This document shows, one piece after another, positions 26,649-43,403 of a DNA stretch of 64,000 nt. The notes beneath the pieces are model-generated. The model was not told the DNA's origin and searched no databases. It worked only from the letters and a program-made list of their open reading frames with translations. Position numbers and translations under genes: made by a program. Numbering within the stretch: position 1 is the stretch's first letter; the number at the start of each line of letters is the position of its first letter. The DNA is from Bryobacterales bacterium (GTDB lineage Bacteria > Acidobacteriota > Terriglobia > Bryobacterales > Bryobacteraceae). The stretch spans positions 1 through 64,000 of the forward strand of contig JAEUQC010000041.1 in assembly GCA_016789905.1 (NCBI GenBank), given 5' to 3'.

Positions 26649-29399
26649 TTAGAGTTGCCGGCTCCGCTTTTGCCGCTTCCAGAATGGAACCGGATAGCCG
26701 ATCAAGCAGAACTGATCGAGCGCGAACAGCACGATCGATTCCAGGTTCTGCTTCTTGGCCAGCCATGCCTCTTTTTGCCAGTTCGTGGACGAATCACCCG
26801 GCCCCACCAGGAAGCTCCGCCCCGTGCGGGCGAACCCCTTGGATTGGGCAAACCCGATTGAGTACTTGGATTTGTTCAGGTCTCTTGCGAAGGTGAAGCT
26901 GAAGCTTTCCGTCTTCAGGTTGTTGAGCTTCGCCGGCGTCCAGGCCGCGTTTGGATAGTTCACCAGATGCCCCCACGGCGTATCGTTCACATCGGTGGGA
27001 TACAACACCTCGAAACGGCAATTCGGATGCGCGTTCAAAACGTAGGCACGAATCTGGTCGGTAAAGGTTCCGATGAGCGATGGCAGGAACTCCGCCTCCT
27101 CCGGGAAGTCTGCCGGGTCCACATCCCGATTACCGATATACCGGATCGGAAAACCGTACGTCGCCTCGAACTGGTCCTTCGTGTACTGGTCATAGTAGGG
27201 CAGACTAATCTGCGGATCGAACGGCCCCATGTTCGGGAAGTACCACCATTGGACTTCGCCGAACTGCATATAGGGCACGTATCCGGCCGTCGCCAGAATG
27301 TCGGCCATCTCCAGGTGGACTTTTTCCCAGTAGGCCCGGCTGACGGGCGAGAAGTTCGTCTGCAACGCGGGTGTGTTCAGCAAACAGGCTTCTCCAGTGG
27401 AGTAGCGCTGTCCGATACCCGCCTCCGGCGACGGGTCGCCATGCTGCAGTTCGAGTGAGAAGGCGGCGGTCATATCAAGGCCGTAGTCCTTGCAGGCAAC
27501 GTAAAAACCGCGCGACCAGTCCCTGCAGGCCCGGTTGATCCGTGGATCGGCCGTTGTATCGGTATACCAGTTGCCGTCCTCCCCGCCGGTCAGGTTTGCC
27601 GCGGATTTCGTTAGCGAAAACCCGCCGCTTGCCGGCGAGACTTCCAGGCTCACCAGTTCGCCGGCATTGCCCATTGCCCTTGCATAAATGGTCAGCCGCG
27701 TTCCCGAAGCTTCGGCACGAATTGCGGTGTAGCCACGGTTGAACTCCAGCTCGAACGCCTTGGCGATCGTCTCCGCCGTATCGCCATATAGGTTCAAGTG
27801 GCGGACCATTAGTTCCGACGCCGGTTCGCCCACACGTCCAATCGTAATGTCGGTATACTCGTTCACCACCGGCGTTCCAATAAAGTCAATCGTCGCTGAG
27901 GCGTACTGGTGTCCCTTTCGATAGAGCTCGTAAAACCACAACGCGCCGACGTAATGATTCACCCGTCCACGGAAACCCAGCGAATGAATCAGCCACGCGG
28001 TGCGCTCCGCAGGGATCGCCAGGGAGTGATCCGTATCCCAGTCGGTGGCCAGTGTCACCGTCTCATCGACAGGCTGGTTCTCCACCGTGCTCGCTGGAAT
28101 GGCCACTTCCAGAAAATCGAAATAGAACGCGTTACCGCCGGGCCCGTTGTGCGAGATCAGCACTGAATGCTCGCCCGGTCCGTATTGGCCCAAGGGCACC
28201 CGCATCAGCGCATCCTCGCCGTTGGCCCGTAAGGAAAGTACGCGTGGAGTCTCATTGTCCACGCGCAATGCGATATCGGCGCCGGCTGTCAAAAGCCGCG
28301 TGCCCAGATACAGCTCATGCGTCTGCGGACAGCGGTATGGAATCGTTACGCTGTCGCCGTATGCGCCGGTATAGCGAATGGTGCCGCCTGAAAAATTCCC
28401 CTTCGTCTTCACCCAGGCGTTGCCGTAATAGCTGACGCTTCGATGGTTGTCCTCCAGCCGCCGGCTGCCCGGCCCGGCCACGCGGTAGCCGCGGTTGGCG
28501 CCGGTGACGGACCAGTTGCTTATCACCGCCGCGAACTCGCTGCGTTCGTAAGCGCCCGTCTGCATCGCCGCCGCGTACGTCCACCGCATTTTGCGTACCT
28601 TCTGTGTGGGAACAGTCCGGTTCAGCCGGTCCGTCAACGCACCCATCGGCAGCACCACGCGCCATTTCGTCGGTGAAGCGCCGCCGCTGAAGGTGGCCGA
28701 CGCCGGCTCCCAGTACTCTGTCGTGCCAGCGACGGTTCCGTACGCCCCAACCACGTTGCCATTGGCGCCGGTCGTCGAATTCGCCAGCGTCTGGCCGTCG
28801 CCAATGTAGGTGAGTGTGATTACCGCGCCCGCGCTGGCCGCGTGAACGGTTGTCGAATGAGTGTTGATAGCGGTGGCAATTGCGTCAGCGACTGTTGTTA
28901 GAGTATCCCCGGCCACCACATCGTACTTGTGGTTTTCGCTCATCCACGCCAGCCCAATAATGTCCCCTGCGGTGATTGTGCCCTTCAGTTCGAACGTCGC
29001 GGTTGCACATACGTAGGTCCCCTCAATCGGTGTCGCGTAGTCCTTTAGCTTCACCTGGTAGAACGTCTCCACACCATTGTCATCCGCCCACACGCGGAGA
29101 TAAGGCCAATCCACCGTCGGATACAGGTCCGAGTCCAATGGAATGCAGTTGTCGCGTGTTTCCTCATAGGTCAACGTCAGGCCACTTAGGTCGCCGTCCG
29201 GCAGGTTACGAAAACGCGGATGCTCGAATACGTTCTCGCGGTTCCATTCGATAACGCACCAATCGAACTGTTGACGCCACGTCCCGCTGGCGGTAAAACC
29301 AGCGGGCGTGGCGCCACTCATCGCGGCAATCGCCGACGGCCTTTCGAAGTAGACCTGCAAGTCGCGGTCGGGTCGCAGTTTTTCTAGAGTTTCTGGCAT
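26649..29399 (-). CDS. Terminal tail protein of particle locus, beta-rich with TIM-barrel/glycosidase-like C-terminus
   Basis: A 916-residue protein, last gene of the particle block, starting five bases after the hub gene. Around residues 145-225 lies a flagellin/fibre-like module (YDVVAGDTLTTVADAIATAINTHS followed by a GAVITLTYIGDG strand). Around 330-450 there is a carbohydrate-binding-like beta domain. Residues about 640-900 look like a TIM-barrel hydrolase, including AAFSLELQHGDP and YMQFGEVQWWYFPN with acidic residues at strand ends. By position it should be receptor-binding or envelope-degrading. No family is firmly recognised and the catalytic role is inferred. Confidence 0.6.
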   Translation of the reverse strand: MPETLEKLRPDRDLQVYFERPSAIAAMSGATPAGFTASGTWRQQFDWCVIEWNRENVFEHPRFRNLPDGDLSGLTLTYEETRDNCIPLDSDLYPTVDWPYLRVWADDNGVETFYQVKLKDYATPIEGTYVCATATFELKGTITAGDIIGLAWMSENHKYDVVAGDTLTTVADAIATAINTHSTTVHAASAGAVITLTYIGDGQTLANSTTGANGNVVGAYGTVAGTTEYWEPASATFSGGASPTKWRVVLPMGALTDRLNRTVPTQKVRKMRWTYAAAMQTGAYERSEFAAVISNWSVTGANRGYRVAGPGSRRLEDNHRSVSYYGNAWVKTKGNFSGGTIRYTGAYGDSVTIPYRCPQTHELYLGTRLLTAGADIALRVDNETPRVLSLRANGEDALMRVPLGQYGPGEHSVLISHNGPGGNAFYFDFLEVAIPASTVENQPVDETVTLATDWDTDHSLAIPAERTAWLIHSLGFRGRVNHYVGALWFYELYRKGHQYASATIDFIGTPVVNEYTDITIGRVGEPASELMVRHLNLYGDTAETIAKAFELEFNRGYTAIRAEASGTRLTIYARAMGNAGELVSLEVSPASGGFSLTKSAANLTGGEDGNWYTDTTADPRINRACRDWSRGFYVACKDYGLDMTAAFSLELQHGDPSPEAGIGQRYSTGEACLLNTPALQTNFSPVSRAYWEKVHLEMADILATAGYVPYMQFGEVQWWYFPNMGPFDPQISLPYYDQYTKDQFEATYGFPIRYIGNRDVDPADFPEEAEFLPSLIGTFTDQIRAYVLNAHPNCRFEVLYPTDVNDTPWGHLVNYPNAAWTPAKLNNLKTESFSFTFARDLNKSKYSIGFAQSKGFARTGRSFLVGPGDSSTNWQKEAWLAKKQNLESIVLFALDQFCLIGYPVPFWKRQKRSRQL

Positions 29400-29404
29400 A
29401 TGGG

Positions 29405-32400
29405 TCAGAGTCGAACAGTTACAGTCAAGTCAGCTCCTGGCGTGCTGGTGGCCGTCTGGCCCACCGACACAATGTCCAGTTGCAGCAGCGAGCCGCCGCG
29501 CAGCGGCGCCAGCCCGAAACCGTCAACGACGTTGGAAATCGTCCCGTTGACAGGAATTGTCAGCGTGCAAATCACATCGGCGTCCTGGCGCAGCCGCAGT
29601 TCCACCGGTATCTCCGTGGGAGCTTCCAGCACCACGGCGTAAATGTCCTGCATCGCCATGAAGTCTTCAATCACTAAGGGAGGCGTCGCGTCGTCTTCAA
29701 TCGACAATGGCCCCTCCACCTGCAAGTTCAGTTGTCCGCCGCGCATCGTACGCAACCCCAGTTCCGTGGTCGCCGTAAAATGCCGCCGGTCCACCGGGCT
29801 GTCGCCCCGTTGATTGGTGACGAAGAAATCCGCGGCCGCCACCCGGGCGTTCGTCAGATTCACCGTATAGTTGTAGCTGCCGCTTGCCGGCGACCCGAAG
29901 AAGTCGCGGCTGAATGGCACTATTTCCGTTCGCTCCTGCAACGCATAGACGATCTCATCGGCCCCATGCCCAATCGCTGGAGACCCATGGGAACCGCGCG
30001 TCACCTGAAGCGTCGTCCCGCCCGGCGCCACAGCGTCCACGTGCAGAATCTCCTCTCCGATCTGCAGATACTGCCCGGCCACAACACTCGCCGCGCTAAT
30101 TGTGATCGCTGTCTCCACGTCGTCCACCGCGACCGTGGAACGTAGGCCCGACGGGCTCGTCAGTTCGTCCCAATACCGCAGTGTCAATGTGCCCGCAGCA
30201 ATGCTTCGCGTGTTGTCGAACGTGGGAAAACCGACGCCCAAAAGGTCAATGGTCCCGTCGCCCTTCACCTGCATGGAGAACACCGGTTGCGGCGGAACAT
30301 CGAGGTCCAGCAGCATACCGGCGGCACCGACTATACGCCATCGCGTCAGCGGGCACAGTTCAAACGGACACTCTTTATCGTTTGCGTTCGCCGATCGTCC
30401 CGAAACATGCAGCGTATACCCCTCGCGGTTGGGAACCAGGAACGTCACCGGACTCGTAGCCGATGTCGCGCCAAAGCTCCAACTCGGTTCGGCCACCACA
30501 AACTTGCTGGTAGCATCCGGTATCACTGCCCACTTGTCTTCCAGCGTCAACAGCGTCGGCGTGTTTCCGTAGATGCGCCTCTCCTGGCCCTCGCCCTTTC
30601 CTGAGACAATCCGCACCACTTGTCCGCGGTACTCGTTCCCCAGCATCGTGAGTTCTGTATTGCCTACGGTATTCCACGTCGCCTGGTTGGCCCCATGGGG
30701 GCCCTGCAATTCCCACCGCCAGTGGAAATTGGCGTGAGAGTAATTCTCGTCCGGCGGCCCAACAATTCCCTCCGCGGCACCCGTATCCGTGTAGCTTGCC
30801 GCCAGCGGCACGTCGTTCGCCACCCGGTGAAGCTGCTGCGGGCTCGAACCCCGATACACATGAAACGCTTGTGACTCGCTGCTAAAGCTCATGCTTTGCA
30901 GCGTCACCACGTTCGTGTTGGTACCCGGCGGGATCACTGCCCGCACTATGAATGACAATCCACTTTCGGCGCCATCGCCATCCAGCGCCGTCAACGCATA
31001 GTAAAGAATCTGATCCCCAGCCAGCGTCCCGCCTGTCCCTTGGGAAAGCGCGGAAAATCCAACGAGCGGGCTCCCCGCGCGGCTTGCCGATGGCTTCGCC
31101 GGCGCGGTGAATTCTACCGTCAACCGTGTCTGCGCCGAACCGTCCGTCGCGTCGTCATAGCTCTCCGTGATGCCGAACTGCGGAATCCCGTCCTCGTCGA
31201 TCACCGACCCGCCCAGCGGTCGCGGCAGCCCCAGTTCATACTTCGGCTGCCGGCCGCTGGATTCAGCGCCGTTCCCGGCCGTCTGCACGTACCAGTCGTC
31301 ATCGTGAATCTGCGCTGTGATCACCGTTGTCCGGTGGTTCAGCCCCGGCGCCAGTCGCAGCACGCGGAAGGGCTGCCGCAGGAATCCCTCTTTGGTGTAA
31401 GTCAGCGTGATCAAATCGCCTGGCCGCAAGCCAAATCCGCGCACGCTCGTCTCAAACTCAACGTACATGTTCCCGCGTACCGATTTGAGCAGTTGCAGCT
31501 TTACCATCCGCGTCGCCTGGTCGAAATTCGCCAAACCAAGCGCCGGCAGCGCGGCACTGGTCTCCTGGCCGCTCGCCAGCACATCGTCCACATCCACCAG
31601 AGAGACGCTGTCTTGCTGGTACTCATTGAAAGCGTCCTGAAACTCCACGCTGAAACGATTGGGCGCGTCGGCGGAACTGCGGCTGTAGAACCGGATTTTC
31701 GGCTCCCCGCTCTCGCTCCGCAAGAGCCCACCGGCCGGTGTCGAGCCGTCCCCGAACTCGTAGGCCGGCCATCCGTTCAGCAGCACCTCAGTGGCATTGC
31801 TTCCCGCAGGCTTTTGCGCGTGCTGTACGGCCACGGTCGATTCGAACCGGCACTGGAGTTTACCGCCATTTCCGAAACTCAGCAGAAGCCCCGCGCTGTT
31901 CCGTATCCCCCGCAAAACATCGGCAGCGCTCCGGCGCCGGCGCAGAGCCAAGTTGCACTGGAACCGTGGCACCGTAATCGAGTTGCCATGCAGATCGAGT
32001 GTCTGAATCGGATCGTCGCAGTACAGCGCGGTCTCAGCAAAGCTCGCCAGATCCAGTTCCCCTTCTGCCCATCCGCTGCGGCGCAGCACATCCAGCAACA
32101 CCCACGCCGGGTTATTCGTGAACACATTCCCGGTGAAGTTCTCCCCTGTATCGTAGGTGGGCAGCTTCATACCATCCACCAATGCCTTCACCCGCGGCAG
32201 CGAACGTCCGTCGTGAATCCGGTTTGGAACCACGACAGATACAACAGCCATGCTCCCATAGGGATCGCCAACCGGATTGCCGGAGCTATCCCGGAAGTCC
32301 AGGTTGAAATCTCCGGTGCGATTGCCCAGGCTCACCACGTTGTACCATCCAGTGGACGTCATGTCGCGCCCGGCCGAACCCTGCGGAATCTCAATGTCGT

Positions 32401-33331
32401 TGACGACAATCTTCATTACCCCTTGCATCTCGCCGGCGCCCAACAGCACTTCCATCCGTGTCAGGTTGCCATCGTTGCGCGCAAGGGTTACCGGCGGCTG
32501 CACCCACGCGGTGCCATAGATCAACGGCACCACGTCGTTGTACTTGGCCTCGTTGTCGATCGGGCCGCTCAAATGCGAACTCTTTTCGCCATAGCCCCGC
32601 ACCAGCACGCTAGACGGCACGAATTCCACCCCGCCAAAGCGGCGGGTGATGTTGTTGGCGCTGTCGGTCCTGAACATCCCGCGCTGCTCGCACGCGGCTC
32701 GCGTGTAGTCGCAAGAAGTGTAAGGGGTCGAGCCGTTCAGGTTCCCCACCCCGCCGGTTTCGCCCGCTGAATACCCGCAGCGGAAAAACGGCGAGTATGC
32801 GCCCCTGGCGCCGCCGTCCATCCCTTCCTGCCGCTGCGGCGCATCTGCGGGAAACATCCACGGACATCGCTTCTGGATGCGGATCTCCGGCAACAGCAAG
32901 CGCTGAAAATTCAGCCGGTTGTTGAAAGAGAGCCGCATCGCGGATTCACGCATACTTTCCGGCGCATTCGCGATGCCACGAAACAGCACCGCGTCCTCCG
33001 ACGCCGGAGCATCGTTCTTCATATCGAAGAACAGAAAGCGCACGGTCAGCTTTGCGCCTTTCCAGCCGATTGAACGCTCGACCTGCGAATACCGGGAATC
33101 GGTGTTGGCAAGCGTCAGCGATATTTTCGCTGTTGCGTCAATGCCGTCCTCGGACTGCGCGCGAAGATCGAACTGACTATGATCAATAAGCGTTGGCAAA
33201 TACAGGTTCCCGTTAAACGACACCTGGTGCGTCGCCCAGTATTCGTGCTGTCCATTGCGTAGCTCGCAATCGAATAGCAAAATCGGGGTTTCGAGAACTT
33301 CCTGTTCCTTGATTTCGAAAATCGTTGACAT
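29405..33331 (-). CDS. Tail hub/baseplate megaprotein (DUF2163/gpL-like N-terminus)
   Basis: A 1308-residue tail-tip protein. The first 300 residues resemble the DUF2163/BR0599 and lambda gpL hub families: LLFDCELRNGQHEYWATHQVSFNGNLYLP at the start and four spaced cysteines (CPW, FRCGYSAG, SCDYTRAACEQRGMF) before RRFGGVEFVPSSVL, the arrangement that binds an iron-sulphur cluster in gpL. Later regions are beta-sandwich, with Fn3-like parts around residue 780 (QAFHVYRGSSPQQLHRV). In RcGTA the hub functions are split over several genes; here they appear merged in one chain. The exact domain boundaries need profile searches. Confidence 0.75.
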   Translation of the reverse strand: MSTIFEIKEQEVLETPILLFDCELRNGQHEYWATHQVSFNGNLYLPTLIDHSQFDLRAQSEDGIDATAKISLTLANTDSRYSQVERSIGWKGAKLTVRFLFFDMKNDAPASEDAVLFRGIANAPESMRESAMRLSFNNRLNFQRLLLPEIRIQKRCPWMFPADAPQRQEGMDGGARGAYSPFFRCGYSAGETGGVGNLNGSTPYTSCDYTRAACEQRGMFRTDSANNITRRFGGVEFVPSSVLVRGYGEKSSHLSGPIDNEAKYNDVVPLIYGTAWVQPPVTLARNDGNLTRMEVLLGAGEMQGVMKIVVNDIEIPQGSAGRDMTSTGWYNVVSLGNRTGDFNLDFRDSSGNPVGDPYGSMAVVSVVVPNRIHDGRSLPRVKALVDGMKLPTYDTGENFTGNVFTNNPAWVLLDVLRRSGWAEGELDLASFAETALYCDDPIQTLDLHGNSITVPRFQCNLALRRRRSAADVLRGIRNSAGLLLSFGNGGKLQCRFESTVAVQHAQKPAGSNATEVLLNGWPAYEFGDGSTPAGGLLRSESGEPKIRFYSRSSADAPNRFSVEFQDAFNEYQQDSVSLVDVDDVLASGQETSAALPALGLANFDQATRMVKLQLLKSVRGNMYVEFETSVRGFGLRPGDLITLTYTKEGFLRQPFRVLRLAPGLNHRTTVITAQIHDDDWYVQTAGNGAESSGRQPKYELGLPRPLGGSVIDEDGIPQFGITESYDDATDGSAQTRLTVEFTAPAKPSASRAGSPLVGFSALSQGTGGTLAGDQILYYALTALDGDGAESGLSFIVRAVIPPGTNTNVVTLQSMSFSSESQAFHVYRGSSPQQLHRVANDVPLAASYTDTGAAEGIVGPPDENYSHANFHWRWELQGPHGANQATWNTVGNTELTMLGNEYRGQVVRIVSGKGEGQERRIYGNTPTLLTLEDKWAVIPDATSKFVVAEPSWSFGATSATSPVTFLVPNREGYTLHVSGRSANANDKECPFELCPLTRWRIVGAAGMLLDLDVPPQPVFSMQVKGDGTIDLLGVGFPTFDNTRSIAAGTLTLRYWDELTSPSGLRSTVAVDDVETAITISAASVVAGQYLQIGEEILHVDAVAPGGTTLQVTRGSHGSPAIGHGADEIVYALQERTEIVPFSRDFFGSPASGSYNYTVNLTNARVAAADFFVTNQRGDSPVDRRHFTATTELGLRTMRGGQLNLQVEGPLSIEDDATPPLVIEDFMAMQDIYAVVLEAPTEIPVELRLRQDADVICTLTIPVNGTISNVVDGFGLAPLRGGSLLQLDIVSVGQTATSTPGADLTVTVRL

Positions 33332-33354
33332 GGGATCCTGCTCTCCGCGTTCAA

Positions 33355-34146
33355 TTAGTAGGGGCGGCTTTCGATGCGTATCTCGGCCGCGTTATTGTTC
33401 GGTGCCTGTTGAATCCAGGCCAGTTCGTCATCGGCAAACCGGGCATTCGGATACAATCCACACCGCGAGTTTGTCCGCCGGTATCCGCCCGGCGCCAACT
33501 GGGCGTCCGCTTGCATTCCGGTCACCGTCACAGACTGCCCTGGCTCCAGCAGCAGACTGAATGTCACTGATTCGGCGTTGCTTCCAGGACGCGCGTTTAC
33601 CGAATAGCGCTTCCAATCCGCATCGGCGATAAACGCTCGCTCCGTCACCACTCCGCCCGAATCGATGCGGAGGCGAAACTGCTGTCCGCTGCCGGTTACA
33701 TAGGCGCTCAGACAGTACTGCAACGTTCCCGGAGCATTGATAGTTTGGGCGAATCCCTGCATCGCAGCGCCCGCGTTGGACACAGTTGTTCCTCTCGTCA
33801 TCCCCCACGGGTCCGCCGCGCCGGAAACCTGCGCCAGCATCGGATCGGCGGTCCAGATTCCCTCGCTGAAGTCCTCGCTCCACTTGAGCAGATTCGCCGC
33901 CGGGTCCAGAAAGACGAAGTCCTGCAATCGCCCTTCGCACTCGGCGAAGAGCGCGTCGATCGCGCCCCTTTCCCCGGTTGTCAGCCCCTCATATTGCAAC
34001 ACCCAACCCACACGTGCGGCACTGCCGTCGTAGTAGGTTCGCAGCCGTCCGTCCAATGATTCGTGCTTGACCAGCCGCTCCCGCCGTTCCCGGCGGAGCG
34101 GGTATTGCCCCGCCGTAAAGGTTTCGAGTTGTGGAAAGTAGCGCAT
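33355..34146 (-). CDS. Distal tail protein with embedded carbohydrate-binding-like domain
   Basis: A 263-residue protein. The first 75 residues (SLDGRLRTYYDGSAARVGWVLQYEGLTTGERGAIDALFAECEGRLQDFVFLDP) share a pattern with the next gene upstream and with phage distal-tail proteins that contain WxLxxxxLxxxEkxaldaFF and FvDP. Residues about 78-230 form an inserted jelly-roll-like domain (NLLKWSEDFSEGIWTADP is a common lead-in to such phage sugar-binding domains). It is likely part of the tail tip, with surface binding inferred. Confidence 0.6.
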   Translation of the reverse strand: MRYFPQLETFTAGQYPLRRERRERLVKHESLDGRLRTYYDGSAARVGWVLQYEGLTTGERGAIDALFAECEGRLQDFVFLDPAANLLKWSEDFSEGIWTADPMLAQVSGAADPWGMTRGTTVSNAGAAMQGFAQTINAPGTLQYCLSAYVTGSGQQFRLRIDSGGVVTERAFIADADWKRYSVNARPGSNAESVTFSLLLEPGQSVTVTGMQADAQLAPGGYRRTNSRCGLYPNARFADDELAWIQQAPNNNAAEIRIESRPY

Positions 34147-34149
34147 GAG

Positions 34150-34506
34150 TTACCTGTTCTGCCGCACCACCAGGCGCGTGCGGCCATCGTGAAATCCTGT
34201 GAAATCAAAATAGACGTCCGGGTTTTCCAGACTGCATCCGGTGTACTCGGTCTCGTCCCAAGGGTCCACAAACGTGAACGTGCCGTAGCCGCCTTGCTCG
34301 GCGAGGAAGAACGCCTCCATCGCGTCCATCTCCTCCTCATCGAGCATTGTGAGTTGCACAATCCATCGCCGCAGCGGTCCGCCGAACTCCCGGAACCGTT
34401 GTTCACTCCCATCGACGAATCGCATTACCTGCGTCGAAAAACGCGTTGTTCGCTGTGCCGGGTATTGGGCCACGGCGCCCGTCTTCAGTCGTGGAAACTC
34501 GTCCAT
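34150..34506 (-). CDS. Small distal-tail (Dit/DUF2460-like) protein
   Basis: A 118-residue protein between the tape-measure-like gene and the larger distal-tail protein. RRWIVQLTMLDEEEMDAMEAFFLAEQGGYGTFTFVDPWD is the pattern of phage tail-tip proteins in which a helix is followed by an F-x-D-P turn. The neighbouring 263-residue protein uses the same plan, so the two may be paralogues forming adjacent rings. Gaps to both neighbours are ten bases or fewer. Confidence 0.65.
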   Translation of the reverse strand: MDEFPRLKTGAVAQYPAQRTTRFSTQVMRFVDGSEQRFREFGGPLRRWIVQLTMLDEEEMDAMEAFFLAEQGGYGTFTFVDPWDETEYTGCSLENPDVYFDFTGFHDGRTRLVVRQNR

Positions 34507-34516
34507 CGTCTTGCTC

Positions 34517-35086
34517 CTAGAGTTCGCTCACCACATCGTTCAAGCTGTGCGATTGCAACATCGCCTCTCGCACCGCGCGCGCAATATCCTCGCGCCGGTC
34601 CAGGAAAGACTGGCTGTCCATCGCCTGTACGTTCACCGTGATGGCGGTGTTCGTCCCAACCTTTCCGCTCACGGGCGCGCCTCCCGTTGCCGGGCCGGTC
34701 TGCGCTGGCGGCGGCAATTGCCGGATTCGGTCGCCCACACCGCGGTCAATCAGAAACGTCTCGCCGGATTGACTCAGCCCCGCCTCGGCTCGAATCGAAG
34801 CCGGCATCGCAAACTTCTCCAGCGGCGCCGGCTCGTCTTTCCCTCTCCCAACGCCGAACAACTTCAACAAACCGCTGACCACCGGCAACAGCGTCAATCC
34901 GCCCCCAACGGTTCGCAGTGCCGAAGCGGCCACATTCGCCCCGCGCGAAGCCCCCGGGCCGCTTCCAGCCGTTTCCGGAGCCGCGAACAGCGATGGCAGT
35001 TGGGCCAGCAGCCCGGGGCTCAACGCGCGCGCTCCCTTTTGCCCCTGCAAATTATTTAACAACGCGATCAGTTCATCATTAGCCAT
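34517..35086 (-). CDS. Short tape-measure-like tail protein
   Basis: A 189-residue protein directly downstream of the frameshifted chaperone, the place of the tape-measure gene in siphovirus-like tails. Residues about 148-189 (ITVNVQAMDSQSFLDRREDI, then ARAVREAMLQSHSLNDVVSEL) match the conserved C-terminal end of many phage tape-measure proteins as I recall them. A hydrophobic segment lies at about 55-77. Typical tape measures are 600-1500 residues, so the tail would be very short. It starts eight bases before the chaperone extension ends, indicating coupling. Confidence 0.68.
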   Translation of the reverse strand: MANDELIALLNNLQGQKGARALSPGLLAQLPSLFAAPETAGSGPGASRGANVAASALRTVGGGLTLLPVVSGLLKLFGVGRGKDEPAPLEKFAMPASIRAEAGLSQSGETFLIDRGVGDRIRQLPPPAQTGPATGGAPVSGKVGTNTAITVNVQAMDSQSFLDRREDIARAVREAMLQSHSLNDVVSEL

Positions 35087-35405
35087 GGTTTTTCTCCCGC
35101 AGTAGCTCGCTCTCCAACACCGTGAACGCTTCCACGCTCTTTGCCGGGTACTGCCGCAAATCCCCGCTTCCGCCCATTCGCCATAGGTGATGCTCTTCCA
35201 GCAACGTCAGGCTTTCCGGCCGAATGAACGATTGCGGACACTCCGTCAGCAGCACTTGACCGCGGGCCCATACCGGCTTCTCCTCACCCCGCTCAATGGC
35301 CGGCAGATAGCCGCAGCGTCTTTGCTTCTCCAGGCCGTTCTGTCGGCATTCGTCGCACTTCCACGCGGCCTGGTTCGCGAATTGAAATTGGAAGGCGACT
35401 ATTAG
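35079..35405 (-). CDS. Tail-assembly chaperone extension (reached by -1 frameshift)
   Basis: Open frame of 108 codons with no initiation codon near its beginning. It is entered from the upstream chaperone gene by a -1 shift at A AAA AAC, reading on as LIVAFQFQFANQAAWKCDEC. It contains a CxxC...C...C cluster (CDEC, RRCGY, TECPQS) that could bind zinc. This mirrors lambda G/GT, in which the T part recruits the tail tube to the tape measure. The fused product would be about 229 residues. It ends inside the first codons of the tape-measure-like gene. Confidence 0.8.
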   Translation of the reverse strand, partial: LIVAFQFQFANQAAWKCDECRQNGLEKQRRCGYLPAIERGEEKPVWARGQVLLTECPQSFIRPESLTLLEEHHLWRMGGSGDLRQYPAKSVEAFTVLESELLREKNHG

Positions 35406-35767
35406 TTTTTTCGTTCGTCCTCGTCAAGGAACAGTTCGCCCTTGATGCTGTCGACGATTTCCCGGGCCAGCGCGTCGGGCCAGCGCTCCAGTAAGTTATC
35501 CAGCGATATCGGCTCGCCGTCGATGGTGATGCCGCTAATCTCCTCCAGGCCCCAGCGAATATAGAGCGCATCCATGCGCGCGCGGATTTCGGCGGCATGC
35601 GCGGCGTCTATTACGCTATCGCCGGCCATGTGAAAAGCCAGCGTCTCCCCGGTCTCCCGGATCAGTCGAACCAGTTCCATTCGGCGGGCCAGCGACAGAC
35701 GTCGCACCCGAAATCGCACGCCGTAACAGGCGCGCGATTCCACTGTGATGAAGCTATCGTAGGTCAT
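35402..35767 (-). CDS. Tail-assembly chaperone (lambda gpG-like)
   Basis: A 121-residue protein between the tail tube and tape-measure-like genes, the conserved site of the tail-assembly chaperone. The sequence is mainly helical (LSLARRMELVRLIRETGETLAFHMAG, IRARMDALYIRWGLEEISG). It stops at TAA 35404-35402 directly after a slippery heptamer, so most ribosomes would make this short form and a minority the extended form. It starts three bases after the tube gene. Confidence 0.72.
   Translation of the reverse strand: MTYDSFITVESRACYGVRFRVRRLSLARRMELVRLIRETGETLAFHMAGDSVIDAAHAAEIRARMDALYIRWGLEEISGITIDGEPISLDNLLERWPDALAREIVDSIKGELFLDEDERKN
35405..35422 (-). promoter_or_regulatory. Programmed -1 frameshift site A AAA AAC
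   Basis: On the minus strand the zero-frame codons CGA AAA AAC (35413-35405) contain the canonical X XXY YYZ heptamer A AAA AAC (35411-35405), with the TAA stop immediately after it. GAGG at 35422-35419 lies seven bases upstream and could act as the internal Shine-Dalgarno stimulator known from dnaX. No downstream pseudoknot was worked out. Confidence 0.82.
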
Positions 35768-35770
35768 GGC

Positions 35771-36943
35771 TTATGCAAAGGCGATCTGTATTTCGTCATC
35801 CGCGGAACCCTGTGCTGCGCTCAGCGTGAAGTTCCACTCCAGCCTCGGCTGGCGATCATCGAATTCGGGCACTTCCGGCACCACCGCGGGCAGGTAGATG
35901 CCGCACAACTGCCCGGCGCTCTGCCCAAGCTGGATCATGATCGAAATCGGTGTGCGGTTCTTCGCGGCTTGGTAGAGCCCGAGGGTCGCCGCATCGTCCT
36001 TCTCATAGATCCGGAATTTGATCCCCACTTCCCGTTCCCCCGCCGCGATACACGTGGGCCCGGCGTAGCCGAACTCGCGTTTTCGCATGTCCACGTTGTT
36101 GGCGATCTCAATCTCCGCCTCGGTCAACGTGAAAAACTGCGTCGGCGAAGTTCCAATCCATACCTGGCCAATATGGCCGGGGATAATGTTGTAGTCAACG
36201 CCGCCGACCGCCGGTTCCACCGGAAACGAACTCAAGCCGGCGAGCCCGGAGGAAAACGTCGCGCTGTCAAGCAGGTCCTTCGCCTCGCCGGCGAACTCAA
36301 ACTCGTGGTAGTCGGCGTTCACCTTGATCTTCATTCGGTCCACGCCAGCCCCGGTTAGTGCGCGCTGCACCGCCGTGGCCGGGCTCCAATAGTCAAAAAT
36401 GCTGACGCTCGGCAGGCTCGTCGCTGGCCCGTAAGTCAAGGTAGGATTCAGCGGCGATCCGCCCGATGGCGTCAGCGTAAACGGCGCGTTCAGCTCCACC
36501 GTATTGGCGTTCACCACCGCGGCGACAAACCGGATCTCCCCCCCAAAGCTCACCGCCTGGCCCGCCGCCAGCCCATGGGCCGCGCCAAACGTCAATTGGT
36601 TGTTGCTGCCGGCGGAGGCAACGCTCTGCCCCCCATCCAACAACGGCGCGGCGCCCAGCGCCCCGCGGATGAGCGGACCGTAGGACGGCTCGGCGTTGAT
36701 ATTGCTCCAGTTGGTCATATAGGTCCCCAACTGGTATCGGGTGCGCGTGCGCGCTCCGGATGGTATCCCCGCGCGCGTTCGCGTGCCCGTCTTGTCGCGG
36801 CGCGGGCCCTGCACGGTTTCATGTTGTATGCCAAGGCGGATCGCTGGAATGCGATTCTCCGCCGTTGCCTCAACAACGGCGCCGAAGCTCGACTCCAGCG
36901 TCGCGTAGAAGCGGTTCTGATTGGAAGAAATGTAACAAGCCAT
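35771..36943 (-). CDS. Major tail (tube) protein
   Basis: A 390-residue protein in the tail-tube position between head-tail joining genes and the chaperone. The mixed beta sequence includes NQLTFGAAHGLAAGQAVSFGGEIRFVAAVV (residues about 112-142, an Ig-like insertion), VDRMKIKVNADYHEFEFAGEAKDLLDS near 195 and ITAEIEI-like strands (LTEAEIEIANNVDMRKREFG). This fits phage major tail proteins that polymerise as hexamer rings. The name rests on position and fold pattern rather than on a specific match. Confidence 0.68.
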   Translation of the reverse strand: MACYISSNQNRFYATLESSFGAVVEATAENRIPAIRLGIQHETVQGPRRDKTGTRTRAGIPSGARTRTRYQLGTYMTNWSNINAEPSYGPLIRGALGAAPLLDGGQSVASAGSNNQLTFGAAHGLAAGQAVSFGGEIRFVAAVVNANTVELNAPFTLTPSGGSPLNPTLTYGPATSLPSVSIFDYWSPATAVQRALTGAGVDRMKIKVNADYHEFEFAGEAKDLLDSATFSSGLAGLSSFPVEPAVGGVDYNIIPGHIGQVWIGTSPTQFFTLTEAEIEIANNVDMRKREFGYAGPTCIAAGEREVGIKFRIYEKDDAATLGLYQAAKNRTPISIMIQLGQSAGQLCGIYLPAVVPEVPEFDDRQPRLEWNFTLSAAQGSADDEIQIAFA

Positions 36944-36989
36944 GTCTTAGCCTTCCTGCTGAATTTTTACGGACGCCTCGCGCGCCCGC

Positions 36990-37484
36990 CTATACGCTCA
37001 CCTGAACGTCGAAGCTCACCTTAGCGGTCTGAAGGAAGTTCTTTCCCCCATGCTTGACGGGTTGGTAGGTTACGGTGTAGCCCCCGGTGTAGAAGAGGCC
37101 GCTGTCCCAGTCACCGCGGTTGCCGTCCAGCACTTCGGTCAATGCGTCGACATACCACTGCAGTTTCTGGTCCAGCCCCTCCAGCCGGTCATGCGTCACC
37201 CGCACATCCACACTCAACGTTGCCGTGCCGGAAAACTGCCGGAACTTCTCGCGCAGCGTGTTCTGCAGCTTCTCGCAATAGATATGAAATGCCGGATACT
37301 TGGTTCCGGCGCTCTTCTCGATCACTTCGGCGGGCACGTTCTGCGCGATGATCTGCGCCAGTTCGATGAGTGGCAACACCACTTGGTTCTTCTGCGCGAT
37401 GTTCGCCAAGCCTGCCTGCAGCCCGGCCGGTGCCCGCAGCAGGCCCGCTGCTTTTTGTACGGCGATTGTCCCGATCTGTGCCAT
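36990..37484 (-). CDS. Head-tail joining/tail-terminator-like protein
   Basis: A 164-residue protein; ATG 37484 is chosen because it lies four bases after the previous gene ends. The C-terminal half (LSVDVRVTHDRLEGLDQKLQWYVDALTEVLDGNRGDW, then GGYTVTYQPVKHGGKNFLQTAKVSFDVQVSV) has the alpha-beta plan of phage tail-terminator and minor-capsid proteins. It lies just upstream of the tail tube, the usual place for a terminator. Evidence is positional. Confidence 0.5.
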   Translation of the reverse strand: MAQIGTIAVQKAAGLLRAPAGLQAGLANIAQKNQVVLPLIELAQIIAQNVPAEVIEKSAGTKYPAFHIYCEKLQNTLREKFRQFSGTATLSVDVRVTHDRLEGLDQKLQWYVDALTEVLDGNRGDWDSGLFYTGGYTVTYQPVKHGGKNFLQTAKVSFDVQVSV

Positions 37485-37488
37485 AGAG

Positions 37489-38235
37489 TTACCCCCGGTG
37501 CAGCACAGGTACGTGCCGCAGGTAATGTTCCGCCGTCTGCCCGGTGCCCGGAGAAGTGCCCGCCGCCAGCCCGGTGGAAGGCATGGTCCATGTCGCGCCG
37601 AGTTCCAAAGGAGCGTTGTTCTGACGCTGCATCTGATCGTCCAGCAGTCCGGCATACAGATTCCATCCGCGAGCGTTCGGCGGCGCGCCAATCGCGCGGA
37701 CGGTCAGCGCCGTGCCTTCCATCGTCGTGATGCCCGCCGTTTCGCTCGGGGAACTGGCCACACCGTGTGCGTCCACCCATTCCACACGGACATAGAACGT
37801 GCGTGCCGGGTGCGCTCCCGCTAGTTGACCCAACAACGGTTGCACCGGTTTGGCCAGAGGATTGAATACCAGCCCCACTCCGGTTTCAAACAGCATTTGC
37901 CCCGCCGCCCGCGCCAGCCGCTCGTACTCTTTCCACTTGTGTTTGTGCCGGTCGTTGAGTTGCTGGAAATGCGCGTCGCGGTAGGTGGCCGCCAGCGCCA
38001 GTAGCGTGTGCCACTGTTTTAATCCACTGGTCAGGGCCACGTGTCCTAAGGTGTATTGCTGGCCGCCGGGCGTCTGCGCCATCAGCCGCTGCAGTTCCAG
38101 CCCGATTTCCAGCGCCGCCACCGTCGCCTTCGCCGTCAAGTCGATGCCCTCGGTGGCGGCCACTTCCACGATCGCGCTTTCGTAGTTTGCCAGGTCGGTG
38201 ATTTGAGAAGGATTGCCATCCACAAAGAGCGCCAT
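37489..38235 (-). CDS. Head-tail connector-like protein with C-terminal Ig/Fn3-like domain
   Basis: A 248-residue protein. ATG 38235 has AAGGAG just upstream; a GTG at 38253 would overlap the preceding gene. Residues 1-130 are helical (AIVEVAATEGIDLTAKATVAALEIGLELQRL) and resemble small head-completion proteins. Residues about 140-225 form a beta-sandwich-like domain (RTFYVRVEWVDAHGVASSPSETAGITT, GWNLYAG) typical of Fn3 decorations on virions. The function is inferred from position between coat and tail genes. Confidence 0.5.
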   Translation of the reverse strand: MALFVDGNPSQITDLANYESAIVEVAATEGIDLTAKATVAALEIGLELQRLMAQTPGGQQYTLGHVALTSGLKQWHTLLALAATYRDAHFQQLNDRHKHKWKEYERLARAAGQMLFETGVGLVFNPLAKPVQPLLGQLAGAHPARTFYVRVEWVDAHGVASSPSETAGITTMEGTALTVRAIGAPPNARGWNLYAGLLDDQMQRQNNAPLELGATWTMPSTGLAAGTSPGTGQTAEHYLRHVPVLHRG

Positions 38236-38245
38236 ATCCGTCTCC

Positions 38246-38578
38246 TTATTCACCCTTCCGGGAGGGTTGCATCGCCTTCTTCAACGACCGCAACTCGTCT
38301 TCTGCCAGCCGCGTCATTCGCACGCGTTCCTGCAGCGCCGCGATGTCCCGCTGGCGTTGCTGCTCCTCGCGCTCCTCGCGAAGCTTTTTCACTTCTTCCG
38401 GTGTCGCCAGCCGCGCCAGTTTGTCCACCACCAGCTTGGCGGCTGTCGCCCGGCTTACTTCCGAAAAGACGCCCGCCCGTCCGCCATTGGGCGTCTCCAG
38501 GCTGACGGTCAGAACGAAGGATTCTTCGATCGCGGCTTCTTGCTCCGCAATCTCGCGGTAGTAATCTTTCAGGTTCAT
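38246..38578 (-). CDS. Small helical protein of particle locus, function unknown
   Basis: A 110-residue charged protein following the coat gene. The N-terminal half has short strands (SFVLTVSLETPNGGRAGVF) and the C-terminal half is a long predicted coiled coil (PEEVKKLREEREEQQRQRDIAALQERVRM). The region GGAATCCT before ATG supports the start. It could be a head-completion or assembly factor; no family is recognised. Its stop overlaps the possible GTG start of the next gene. Confidence 0.6.
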   Translation of the reverse strand: MNLKDYYREIAEQEAAIEESFVLTVSLETPNGGRAGVFSEVSRATAAKLVVDKLARLATPEEVKKLREEREEQQRQRDIAALQERVRMTRLAEDELRSLKKAMQPSRKGE

Positions 38579-38597
38579 AGGATTCCTCTCATGAAAG

Positions 38598-38626
38598 AGG
38601 AGGAGGCGCTTGAAGCGCCTCCTCCT
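38598..38626 (-). repeat. Strong hairpin after the coat gene
   Basis: Perfect 13-bp inverted repeat AGGAGGAGGCGCT (38598-38610) and AGCGCCTCCTCCT (38614-38626) with a 3-base loop. On the transcribed strand only CTTTC follows, so termination would be partial. It may instead stabilise the coat mRNA end or reduce downstream transcription. Confidence 0.7.
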
Positions 38627-38653
38627 GTCTTGAACGGCGACGGTCCCCAGCGG

Positions 38654-39565
38654 TTAGCTGCGAACCTGAACACCATGCGTGTTGCGCAGAACCGCGACGC
38701 CGTACAGCACGTCCACGGTGAACTGCTGCGCAAGCGTGTTGGGCTGGTAGCTCATCACCACTCGCATGCCGAAGTTGCCCAGTTCGGCGTATTCGGCCAC
38801 CGCGCCCGTGCCCGGCAAGGGTTGCGGCAGGCGGCGCATCACCAGGCCGATTCCGTCCTTGGCGAACGCCAGATTGTTGGTCGTCACCGGGCCGCTGCCG
38901 GTCTTGGAAATGAACTGCGAACGGAAAACGAAGAAGTCCTTCAGCTTCCCGACGCTGCCATCGATCATTGCGCGAACACCCGCTTCGCCGGCCGTGGCGT
39001 ATTCGCTGAAGCGCGGAATCTGGCGGAGTTGCGAATAGGTCGAGCCGTCGACAATCAGGTACTTCTGCGCGCTGGCCGGAACCTTCGCGTTGAACAACGC
39101 CGTCTCCGCCTGGTCAATCGCCGATTCAGTGATCGGCGATCCGCCCGTCCCCACCGCCGGGTTGGCGGTGAACTGCGCGTACAGGTTCATCAGGTCGGTC
39201 TCAATCTTCTCGGCGATCGCAATCACGGCCGGCTCCATGTAAAGCTGGAGAAGATCGGGCACCGCCAAAACCTTGGTCACGTCCGGAATCTGGAACGTGG
39301 CTTCAGCGTGGGTGTTCAATACGATCTGCCCATTCCCAAGGCTGGGATTCTGGGTGGTCACGGAGCCGCCCTGGGCGATATTGTTCGCCGTCAATGTCGG
39401 CGGAATCGGCACATTGACCGTATCTCCGGCCTGGGCCAACGTCGGCTCGAAGCTCCGGTTCACCAGGTTACCCATCACCAGGTTGCCCATCAAGGCGGGC
39501 AGCGCATCGGCGGCCACGAGTTTCACAATCGCATTGGCGACGTTCGAAGAGGTAATTGCAGGCAT
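38654..39565 (-). CDS. Major capsid (coat) protein, P22-coat-like
   Basis: A 303-residue protein. ATG 39565 is preceded by GGGAGAGC, and the upstream in-frame codons are not needed. The opening MPAITSSNVANAIVKLVAADALPALMGNL and the phrase NRSFEPTLAQAGDTVNVPIPP are typical of the P22-type coat family (HK97 fold). It lies between scaffold and head-tail genes, and is isolated from both by hairpins, which suggests separate control of its high expression. Confidence 0.85.
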   Translation of the reverse strand: MPAITSSNVANAIVKLVAADALPALMGNLVMGNLVNRSFEPTLAQAGDTVNVPIPPTLTANNIAQGGSVTTQNPSLGNGQIVLNTHAEATFQIPDVTKVLAVPDLLQLYMEPAVIAIAEKIETDLMNLYAQFTANPAVGTGGSPITESAIDQAETALFNAKVPASAQKYLIVDGSTYSQLRQIPRFSEYATAGEAGVRAMIDGSVGKLKDFFVFRSQFISKTGSGPVTTNNLAFAKDGIGLVMRRLPQPLPGTGAVAEYAELGNFGMRVVMSYQPNTLAQQFTVDVLYGVAVLRNTHGVQVRS

Positions 39566-39631
39566 TCTGCTCTCCCAATAAAAAGATTCGGCCCGGATTT
39601 TCTCCAGGCCGGTTGTAGTCTTAGTTAACCC

Positions 39632-39688
39632 AAGCCGGCGCTTGGCGCCAGCTTGCGTAGGTTGCCGGGGGCTCACGCCCACCGGCAA
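39632..39688 (-). repeat. Two consecutive hairpins between scaffold and coat genes
   Basis: First: AAGCCGGCGC (39632-39641) with GCGCCAGCTT (39645-39654), ten pairs including one G-T, loop of three. Second: TTGCCGG-GGGC (39662-39672) with GCCC-A-CCGGCAA (39677-39688), loop TCAC and one bulged base. They occupy most of the 166-base gap before the coat gene. No T-run follows, so mRNA processing or 5'-end stabilisation of the coat message is a possible role. Confidence 0.6.
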
Positions 39689-39731
39689 GATCGTGTGCGA
39701 GTCGCGGTCTCCGCTCCTCGCCAAACTTCTG

Positions 39732-40307
39732 TTAGAGGTGCGTCGTCAACTGCGACGCCACCCGGGCGATTTCCTGACGGGCCCGCTCCATCTCTTCCTT
39801 CGACATTCCCGGACGGATCTTGTCCAGATCGAAGGAGGAACTGAAACCTCCGGCGCGGTGATTTCCGCTCGCGCCGGATCCACCCGTCACCCTGGCGGGC
39901 AGCAGTTCCGGGTTTTCCCCAACGAAGTGGGTGAGGTATTCCTTCAACCCCATTTCGCCTTGCCCCGTATTGGCCACCAGACGGCCGTCACCGGTCCGCT
40001 GGATGTCGTCTTTGACCGCCTTATAGGCCAGGTCTACCTTGTTCACGCCGAGCCGCTGCAGTTCCGATCGGATCGCCGTGTTGCGTTCCGCCTCTTCGGC
40101 GATCAGCCGGCTTCGTCGGTTCTCCTCCACCAATTCATTCATGCGGCGTTCGAGCGTTTCGCGCCGGCGCCGTTCATCTTCGAGTTCCGCCTTGTAGGCC
40201 GGCTCACTCTTTGCCGTCTCCTGGTTCACGAACTCGCGAATCGCGTCCTGGATCAGGGCCCGGATGTCGGGCGATTTCGGCGCCTCGTTTTTTACGTTTT
40301 CTTCCAT
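39732..40307 (-). CDS. Capsid scaffolding protein
   Basis: A 191-residue highly charged helical protein between portal and coat genes, the standard scaffold position. A coiled-coil region KAELEDERRRRETLERRMNEL (residues about 39-59) is followed by an acidic and Gly/Ser-rich linker and a basic C-terminal helix (PGMSKEEMERARQEIARVASQL) suited to binding coat protein. No protease motif is seen, so it is probably not autocleaved. Confidence 0.78.
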   Translation of the reverse strand: MEENVKNEAPKSPDIRALIQDAIREFVNQETAKSEPAYKAELEDERRRRETLERRMNELVEENRRSRLIAEEAERNTAIRSELQRLGVNKVDLAYKAVKDDIQRTGDGRLVANTGQGEMGLKEYLTHFVGENPELLPARVTGGSGASGNHRAGGFSSSFDLDKIRPGMSKEEMERARQEIARVASQLTTHL

Positions 40308-40319
40308 GTCTAGTTCTCC

Positions 40320-41735
40320 TTACCGTTTCTCGCGGGTCATCCATTCATCGATTTCCCGCGCGATCGTGTCTTTCAAATCCTGCCGCTCGTCGCACAGATA
40401 CTTGAAAGCCAGCTTCTTGTAGATCTGCCGGCGGAGCGTCGGCGACCCGACTCCCAATTCCAGCAGTCTTCGGGCATCGTCGATCTCCGCGGAGAAGTCG
40501 CCGATGTCGAACTCGTCCAGGCCGGATACACCGATGGACAAATCGTCCTCCCGCGCCTGTTCCACCGCTCGCAGCACCCGCTGCATGGCGTCCTTCACCG
40601 TGTCGCCAAAGCTGCGCAGCACTTCCTGCGTAATGGCAAAATCGCGTTGCTTGCTCAGTCCTGAGATTGTGCGTCCGTCGGCCGAGGTCTGTCCGGCCTG
40701 CGCCAGCAGATAACAGACACGGTAGATCTCCTCCTTCAGCCGGTCCAGGTTCTTGGACGCGATTTCGTAAACGTGACCTTCCGGCTCCGCCCAGCCGAAC
40801 TTGTCTTCCGGCCCCATCTGAATGTAGTAGCTCTCTCCGATGATCTGGTTCCAGCTCTTGTCGGAGTAGATCACCGGCGTCGCAAACAGGCCCATCGTCA
40901 GCGCCCAGCCCAGCGCGTTCGACTTGTTGAAGTGTTCCAACTGAAGCGACGCGGCCTTGTTCATCAGCCACATCCCGTCGGATAACTTCAGTTCGAACAG
41001 CGGAACCCGCTTCTGCCGCGCCAAACCGTGCAGCCCTTCAGCCACCAGTTCAATCGGTCTTGCGTCGCTGCCCGTCCCAAACATACCGGGCTTGCTGATC
41101 TGCCGGTAACTCCTGAACTTCTCCCGGTCGTAGTAGTGCCAGTTGGTCTCAAGCATCGGTTCGGCGTCTTCCAGCCGTTGCCGCCGCATCTGGGATGTGC
41201 GGATCACTACCCAGTCGAATTCCCCTCGCTCGTTCGTCGACCAGTTGATGAGCTCGTCCGGAGCATAACTCACCAGGTAGGCATTCGCCGCCCCGACGGC
41301 CTCTTCTTCCGCTCGATTCTGCAGCTTCTGGTGCTGTAGCGGAAAGTCGACCAGTGTGTAGCTCGAACCGCAAATCAGCGCCTCTAGAATCTGACGGCGG
41401 AAAAAGTCGCTTATCTTCGAGCCTTTCCGGTCGCAGTCCTCCACAAACGAGTTGAAGAACTTCCGGCCTATTTCGTTATCGCCGTCCACGCTGATCACCG
41501 GTTCCCGGCGGAACAGCGTGGCCGCGTACCAATCGACAATCGAGCCGATATAGTTCTCATAAAACGCCCGGTTTAGCCGCTCCTGGTACACACCAACCGG
41601 CTCCCGGTTGCGCTGCACCAGATACTCACCAGCCTGGGCCTTGAACTGCGCGCCACCCGTGTAGAGGTCGCGATACTGTTTCCACAGCGCATGGCGCGCT
41701 TTGTATTCGTGATGTTCCGTGTTGATTTCGATCAC
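40320..41735 (-). CDS. Portal protein
   Basis: A 471-residue protein. GTG 41735 is preferred over a longer frame because GGAGGAAGG lies about 15 bases upstream and the chain then opens IEINTEHHEYKARHALWKQYRDLYTGG. Portal-like features are the YLVQRNREP-YQERLNRAFYENYIGSIVDWYAATLF stretch near residue 35, a central region with DKSWNQIIGESYYIQMGPEDKFGWAEPEG, and a C-terminal crown helix region. It would form the dodecameric DNA channel. It lies between terminase and scaffold. Confidence 0.82.
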   Translation of the reverse strand: MIEINTEHHEYKARHALWKQYRDLYTGGAQFKAQAGEYLVQRNREPVGVYQERLNRAFYENYIGSIVDWYAATLFRREPVISVDGDNEIGRKFFNSFVEDCDRKGSKISDFFRRQILEALICGSSYTLVDFPLQHQKLQNRAEEEAVGAANAYLVSYAPDELINWSTNERGEFDWVVIRTSQMRRQRLEDAEPMLETNWHYYDREKFRSYRQISKPGMFGTGSDARPIELVAEGLHGLARQKRVPLFELKLSDGMWLMNKAASLQLEHFNKSNALGWALTMGLFATPVIYSDKSWNQIIGESYYIQMGPEDKFGWAEPEGHVYEIASKNLDRLKEEIYRVCYLLAQAGQTSADGRTISGLSKQRDFAITQEVLRSFGDTVKDAMQRVLRAVEQAREDDLSIGVSGLDEFDIGDFSAEIDDARRLLELGVGSPTLRRQIYKKLAFKYLCDERQDLKDTIAREIDEWMTREKR

Positions 41736-41777
41736 GTTCTTGCTCCACGTCCTTCCTCGCGTGGCGCCGAAAAAGCA

Positions 41778-41833
41778 AGGCCGCCGTATACCGCCAGCGC
41801 CCCCGGTTGGAGTGCTCGCGGTACCGGCGGCCT
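41778..41833 (-). repeat. Large imperfect hairpin between terminase and portal genes
   Basis: AGGCCGCCG (41778-41786) pairs with CGGCGGCCT (41825-41833), and TACCGC (41789-41794) with GCGGTA (41818-41823), leaving a small internal loop and a 23-base apical loop. It fills the 133-base gap between the large terminase and portal genes. It could be a partial terminator, an RNA-processing site or a DNA signal for packaging. Confidence 0.65.
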
Positions 41834-41868
41834 GTGCCAGTCCGTCGCCCGGAAAATTCAAATACTGC

Positions 41869-43170: not shown

Positions 43171-43403
43171 CGAACTTCTACCTCCTTCACTTGTTCCGCT
43201 GTCAGGTCTTTGTAAACCTGTAGCAATTTCAGGAGTTCTCCTACAGAAGTCTTGCTGGAATTTTCCTCATTTTCCAGGTTGTCCATCTGCTTCGCAATCA
43301 TTTTTTTCAGACGTGTCGTGTTCAAGTCGACACTCGTCCGCTTGCTCTTTCTAGCAACGGACTTAGCGTCTCTCTTCTTCTTTCCTTCCACTGTCTCTAA
43401 CAT
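43128..43403 (-). CDS. Small basic/helical protein, candidate small terminase
   Basis: A 91-residue protein, first of the particle block, with CAGGAGGTGAC before its ATG. The N-terminal third is very basic (KKKRDAKSVARKSKRT), which fits DNA binding. The rest is helical (GELLKLLQVYKDLTAEQVKEVEVRWVDRL), which could mediate ring assembly. Position immediately upstream of and overlapping the large terminase suggests the DNA-recognition subunit. There is no recognised helix-turn-helix, so this is an inference. Confidence 0.5.
   Translation of the reverse strand: MLETVEGKKKRDAKSVARKSKRTSVDLNTTRLKKMIAKQMDNLENEENSSKTSVGELLKLLQVYKDLTAEQVKEVEVRWVDRLRADDESGT

Follow-up and report, generated by a model that had tools for sequence, protein, structure and literature searches.

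A probable programmed -1 ribosomal frameshift in the tail genes of an acidobacterial head-tail gene cluster

In a tail gene of a Bryobacterales bacterium, we found a slippery heptamer, A AAA AAC, at the junction of two overlapping reading frames. We predict that these frames are joined by programmed -1 ribosomal frameshifting that is functional and similar in kind to that of lambda G/GT. Based on comparisons of sequences across related loci, we give this prediction a probability of roughly 94%. Frameshifted tail chaperones are already well known, and the larger point is the gene cluster around this one, which probably encodes a gene transfer agent. (Below, "the window" is the whole stretch of 64,000 nucleotides that we analyzed; the features described are on its minus strand.)

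Results

Two reading frames and a slippery site

The zero frame is an open reading frame of 121 codons (35402-35767) that resembles a tail assembly chaperone (TAC). It ends with GAC GAA CGA AAA AAC TAA. The heptamer (35405-35411) is in the X_XXY_YYZ register, and the -1 frame (35079-35405) continues from it for 108 codons plus a stop codon (TAA, at 35079-35081). The product of the -1 frame starts with LIVAFQFQF and ends with REKNHG. An earlier note, made from the window alone, had described CGA AAA AAC followed at once by TAA and a -1 frame of 108 codons that is free of stops; we found both as described. It had also claimed that the -1 frame lacks an early initiation codon, and indeed, from its upstream stop to nucleotide +149 after the slip, the -1 frame of the window contains no ATG, GTG, or TTG. 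Finally, the note had the -1 frame ending inside the start of the tape-measure-like gene, which is correct: that gene's ATG is at 35086 and the -1 frame stops at 35079.

By itself, the heptamer proves little because the word recurs: it is present six times in the window (both strands) and twice in register within the genes of the cluster, in the TAC and in a scaffold gene. (The other in-register A AAA AAC, at 40287-40293, lies at offset 14, early in the scaffold-like gene of 39732-40307, and is probably there by chance.) What makes the heptamer significant is its conservation. We used tblastn to compare the fused product to 299 genomes of the class, and 60 genomes matched. We dropped G119 (L091), whose match seems due to chance, as the frame there reads like a restriction endonuclease. 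G198 has a second copy, so the total is 60 loci, counting the one in the window.

All 60 loci contain the heptamer in frame, as either A AAA AAC (56 loci) or A AAA AAT (4 loci), even though the protein identity among these loci is often just 24-50%. The CxxC-containing extension is retained in all 60 as well, so the conservation that the earlier note had proposed to look for is present on both counts. The codon before AAA ends with A in every locus; it encodes arginine in 56 loci and isoleucine, lysine, leucine, or glutamate in the others. Elsewhere in the same genes, 19% of arginine codons end with A. Similarly, the heptamer's lysine is encoded by AAA in all 60 loci, versus 24.5% elsewhere in these genes, but because the sequences are related, such codon frequencies cannot be multiplied to give probabilities. 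In four loci, the zero frame continues for 22-65 codons beyond the heptamer. (As a side observation, three of the four A AAA AAT heptamers are from four genomes of one genus, g8 (L085-L088), in which the region before the portal gene gave no match to TerL; the terminase of these genomes may have been replaced or lost.)

We also assembled a wider set of 80 genome contigs and 80 contigs from a viral database by searching with the coat protein. These partly overlap the class sample and each other. In this set, 113 loci reach the extension, and 110 of them have the heptamer, always in the frame that matches the TAC HMM. One of the three exceptions is masked (L157). The other two (L107 and L187) are two copies of one contig of 12,733 bp, in which G AGA AAC, at about 8050, replaces the heptamer and both frames and the downstream stem (see below) are intact. 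The remaining 47 of the 160 contigs had no match to the extension. In L155, the end of the TAC and the extension are missing, due to either a deletion or an assembly error; given the lengths of the other contigs and the positions of their matches, we take them to be fragments that end before the extension. In a distant second copy (L287; G075:C156, 18242-19074), the -1 relation of the frames is retained and the slip site reads CGG GGG GAA. Since GGGGGAA is in register there instead of A AAA AAC, the slippery site seems to be exchangeable.

The earlier note had suggested that a GAGG might stimulate slippage. A GAGG is indeed present 7 nucleotides upstream of the heptamer in the window. Across the 60 loci, just 23 have a GAGG in the upstream 20 nucleotides, whereas 20-mers taken elsewhere in these genes would predict about 10. 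The element is therefore not well conserved, and we do not favor it as a conserved stimulator.

The extension is conserved as a protein from the slip onwards

The extension contains four cysteines (C17, C20, C31, and C56) that are invariant across the 60 loci, and so are A4, W46, and P57. Conservation begins right at the slip, with L1 and A4. We computed dN/dS for 10 hand-chosen pairs of loci. In the -1 frame, dN/dS was 0.09-0.52 for nine measurable pairs (the tenth was saturated in dS), while in the zero frame the same DNA gave 0.87-1.75 for all 10 pairs. By this measure, the extension evolves as a protein in the -1 frame only.

Might the second frame be translated as a separate protein, by re-initiation or coupling after the UAA? 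In favor of this, 39 of the 60 loci have an ATG, GTG, or TTG in the -1 frame (ATG in 13 of these) upstream of the first cysteine codon. But the other 21 loci, including the window, have no such start; the positions of the starts are not conserved, while conservation of the protein begins at the slip; and there would be no reason for the heptamer and the stem to be retained. We consider separate proteins to be extremely unlikely.

The AlphaFold model of the extension has a pLDDT of 94.9 and is a mostly helical domain. The model had no match at E = 0.001 in PDB or in BFVD, and structure comparison gave a single VIA row (Z = 2.9). The missing match does not demonstrate a new fold. Judging from the four cysteines alone, the extension probably binds zinc. 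Neither frame had a match above the cut-off in Pfam or PHROG (there was one sub-threshold row from Pfam, with E = 0.1), and the fused protein had no match at E = 1 among 50,697 phage records.

A conserved stem begins 5 nucleotides after the heptamer

Folding of the window suggested a stem beginning 5 nucleotides after the heptamer (z = -1.8). This stem has 11 base pairs, with its 5' arm at 35389-35399 and its 3' arm, which includes one bulged U, at 35352-35363. We tested the stem in 138 non-redundant sequences, with both arms anchored on the protein alignment. (Presence of the heptamer was a criterion for choosing these sequences, and thus they cannot serve as support for it.) Across this alignment, 93.3% of cells were paired, versus 87.8% (sd 0.4) if the arms were shuffled and 81.9% (sd 0.6) if synonymous codons were resampled. 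Changes on both sides of the stem were seen in 25 cells, as compared to 7.6 in shuffles, and none of 500 shuffles reached 25. Compensatory sets include GTC/GAC, CTC/GAG, and ATC/GAT. Both the covariation score and the cells paired exceeded those of the shuffles and of stems that were slid along the alignment, and sliding by 1-3 columns always gave far fewer paired cells. Within the stem, the cysteine codon is TGC in 138 of 138 sequences, and the one variable internal pair, for which two registers are available, can form in 135 of them.

RNAalifold, without constraints, recovered 10 of the 11 pairs from 43 sequences (alignment A3, which is limited to those of the 59 sequences whose loops are equally long; alignment A2 leaves out L050, whose TAC is cut by the contig end). 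In the pair-count test against shuffles described above, two of the five measures (pairs with change on both sides and further types) were no higher than in the shuffles. The minimum free energy of the 84 nucleotides downstream is slightly below that of synonymous shuffles (mean z = -0.46; below zero in 37 of 60 loci), but this raw energy is a weak signal, and covariation is the informative test of the stem. Overall, the conserved stem is likely to be a frameshift stimulator.

The stem might be part of an H-type pseudoknot. The candidate second stem would pair CCAGGCCG, in the loop (35366-35373), with CGGCCTGG (35330-35337). All seven of the pairs tested are formed in 64 of the 138 sequences, and 79.2% of cells are paired, versus 76.4% with shuffling and 62.2% with synonymous codons. 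This is weaker than for the first stem, and a pseudoknot is possible in about half of the loci.

Another way to obtain a fusion would be transcriptional slippage: RNA polymerase would add or drop bases in the run of A's, and normal translation of the altered mRNA would yield the fused protein. The loci do have such a run, with eight A's in L043 and six in nearly all of the others. Six A's is a short run for polymerase slippage. Furthermore, the run is held at six, the C (or T) after it is fixed, the heptamer keeps a constant X_XXY_YYZ register with respect to the codons, and a stem with compensatory changes lies 5 nucleotides downstream; all of these argue for slippage by the ribosome instead. 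We consider slippage by the polymerase to be very unlikely.

Under ribosomal frameshifting, ribosomes translating the TAC mRNA would reach CGA AAA AAC and be slowed by the stem, possibly a pseudoknot, that starts 5 nucleotides further on. A minority would then slip back by one base, with AAA AAC presumably re-pairing as AAA AAA, and these ribosomes would pass the adjacent UAA and translate another 108 codons. The long form would carry the helical domain with four cysteines that probably binds zinc. By analogy to gpG and gpGT of lambda, the tape measure would be coated by the short form, while recruitment of tail tube subunits would fall to the rare long form.

The first frame and its neighbors resemble tail genes

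The AlphaFold model of the TAC-like frame has a pLDDT of 86.4. The best solved structure for it is the tail assembly chaperone of HK97 (PDB:2ob9; Z = 6.8, rmsd 3.4, 88 residues aligned, 14% identity), but the Z score of 6.8 is tied with those of unrelated helical chains. One predicted viral protein also matches (E = 1.6e-7), and among the weak matches, several carry the name of tail assembly chaperone. The tentative identification of this frame as a chaperone derives mostly from its position and from the frameshift.

Upstream of the TAC is a gene that resembles a major tail or tube protein (35771-36943); it matches PHROG 290, "minor tail protein" (E = 4e-14), and we call it a tube by its position. 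Overlapping the end of the extension is a short tape-measure-like gene of 189 codons (34517-35086), with a weak match to a PHROG tape measure (E = 0.00076 over 37 residues). The order is tube-like gene, TAC-like frame, extension, short tape-measure-like gene, and two DUF2460-like genes. The earlier note had likened this placement to lambda G/GT, and the order from tube to tape measure is retained in the homologous loci. The homologous tape-measure frames have a median length of 203.5 amino acids (range 54-269, in 58 loci), and the one with 54 amino acids is probably cut or mis-called. (From the length of a gap, L068 had looked like a prophage with a long tape measure, but its frame has 225 amino acids, with an insertion after it.)

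The probable frameshift lies in a widespread and mostly vertically inherited cluster

The tail genes belong to a head-tail cluster of about 17 kb (26649-43403), which lies between the side of an aminotransferase gene and ilvB. It includes a terminase, a portal, a P22-like coat protein, tail genes, DUF2460, and tip and sheath-like genes. All of the genes with a family match are structural or packaging genes, and in the gene inventory of the window, we saw no genes for lysis, replication, or integrase within the cluster. The coat protein matches P22_CoatProtein in Pfam (E = 1.4e-17) and not Phage_capsid. (The last gene of the cluster, at 26649-29399, matches the TIM barrel of a non-contractile tail sheath (Pfam E = 4.3e-16); it is missing or has no match in part of the loci.) The cluster is collinear in most loci.

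The cluster is probably a feature of the family Bryobacteraceae (Acidobacteriota). Of the 67 genomes of this family that we sampled, 57 have the coat protein, usually in a single copy and with 69-91% identity. It is rare in the rest of the class or phylum: a phylum-wide search found it in 6 of 396 genomes, namely two from the family and four remote ones with 26-30% identity. Among the 50,697 phage records, 16 contain a similar coat protein, all below 30% identity.

We compared a tree of the portal, coat, and tube proteins to a tree of CimA for 31 of the 59 genomes. The trees have 15 of 28 splits in common, versus an average of 0.3 with shuffled labels, and the cluster's tree recovers 13 of the 18 well-supported host splits. 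This points to mostly vertical inheritance. A caveat is that five supported host splits are not matched, which points to some transfer or to errors in the trees. Also, in several genera, ilv genes adjoin the cluster on one side or the other, so its location is partly but not fully retained.

An ordinary or decaying prophage could account for the setting, with the frameshift as a relic rather than part of a domesticated element. One locus fits this idea: a relative in G198 (G198:C1:842000-901999; L089, L284, and L285) shares the heptamer, has a tape measure of 1101 amino acids and a phage lysozyme, and looks like a real prophage. (Another copy of the coat protein is about 17 kb away. These copies are possible living relatives of the cluster's ancestor.) But 57 of 67 genomes of the family carry the cluster, nearly all of them once; its phylogeny is mostly that of the host marker; and dN/dS is low. 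Housekeeping genes flank the cluster in the window, and in the 15 genomes that we surveyed, the listed matches included no integrase less than 20 kb away from the main cluster. We judge a prophage setting to be unlikely, if far from negligible.

Discussion

Because the frameshift is conserved across the family, the tail machinery seems to be still under selection for correct assembly, unlike that of a dead prophage. This makes a gene transfer agent in these abundant soil bacteria a testable idea. We think that the cluster is probably vertically inherited, short-tailed, and like a gene transfer agent. With slightly less assurance, we propose that it is a family-wide gene transfer agent of the Bryobacteraceae, domesticated independently of RcGTA, with a lambda-like frameshifted chaperone whose heptamer, stem, and "T-like" domain with four cysteines (of no known relative) would have been kept since the ancestor of the family.

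Our searches of the literature on gene transfer agents, prophages, or frameshifts in Acidobacteria gave no report of this cluster among the matches listed. In the parts available to us, a survey from 2018 (PMC5900883), which covers 24 genomes of Acidobacteria, gives prophage counts and does not describe the cluster, and "Acidobacteri" is absent from the main text of a 2024 review (PMC11841831). Contigs in the viral database that are derived from metagenomes and contain the cluster may be counted as viruses. Among the best 80 of these contigs, none is above 21.2 kb, as expected of fragments of chromosomes and not of whole phages. The loci also amount to an extensive natural collection for studying a bacterial -1 frameshift that is probably stimulated by a stem.

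Comparison to known systems

The closest parallel is G/GT of lambda: in both, the frames lie between the tail tube and the tape measure, and the -1 shift, which here is predicted, comes late in the first frame and yields a longer fusion. Many other phages with long tails have this arrangement as well. Lambda's slippery site is G GGA AAG. Here, the site is A AAA AAC, the extension is helical with four cysteines and has no significant structural match, there is a conserved stem downstream, and the tape measure has just about 200 amino acids. A_AAA_AAC is listed among the consensus heptamers in a survey (PMC3711429). A review of lambda-type chaperones describes their frameshifting as widely conserved and gives a molar ratio of 30:1 (PMC5009743).

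In the tail assembly genes of corynephage phi16, as far as the available text describes them, an internal Shine-Dalgarno sequence (GAGG), a slippery GGGGGAA, and an H-type pseudoknot are predicted (PMC5506516). Our heptamer differs and the host is unrelated, yet the distant copy L287 has GGGGGAA in register. For HK97, the chaperone 2ob9 is the best solved structure for our model of the zero frame and aligns over nearly its whole length, but with 14% identity, a tied Z score, and no Pfam or PHROG match above the cut-off.

The coat protein of RcGTA is of the HK97 type (Phage_capsid). In contrast, the coat protein here is P22-like in Pfam, which sets it outside the family of RcGTA's coat, and the host family is in the Acidobacteriota. 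What the two share, judged here from the genes alone, is a compact structural cluster, vertical inheritance, a DUF2460 protein, and a tape measure of similar size: that of RcGTA comprises 113 + 83 + 20 residues, or about 216, in the portion of the report that we consulted (PMC7296036).
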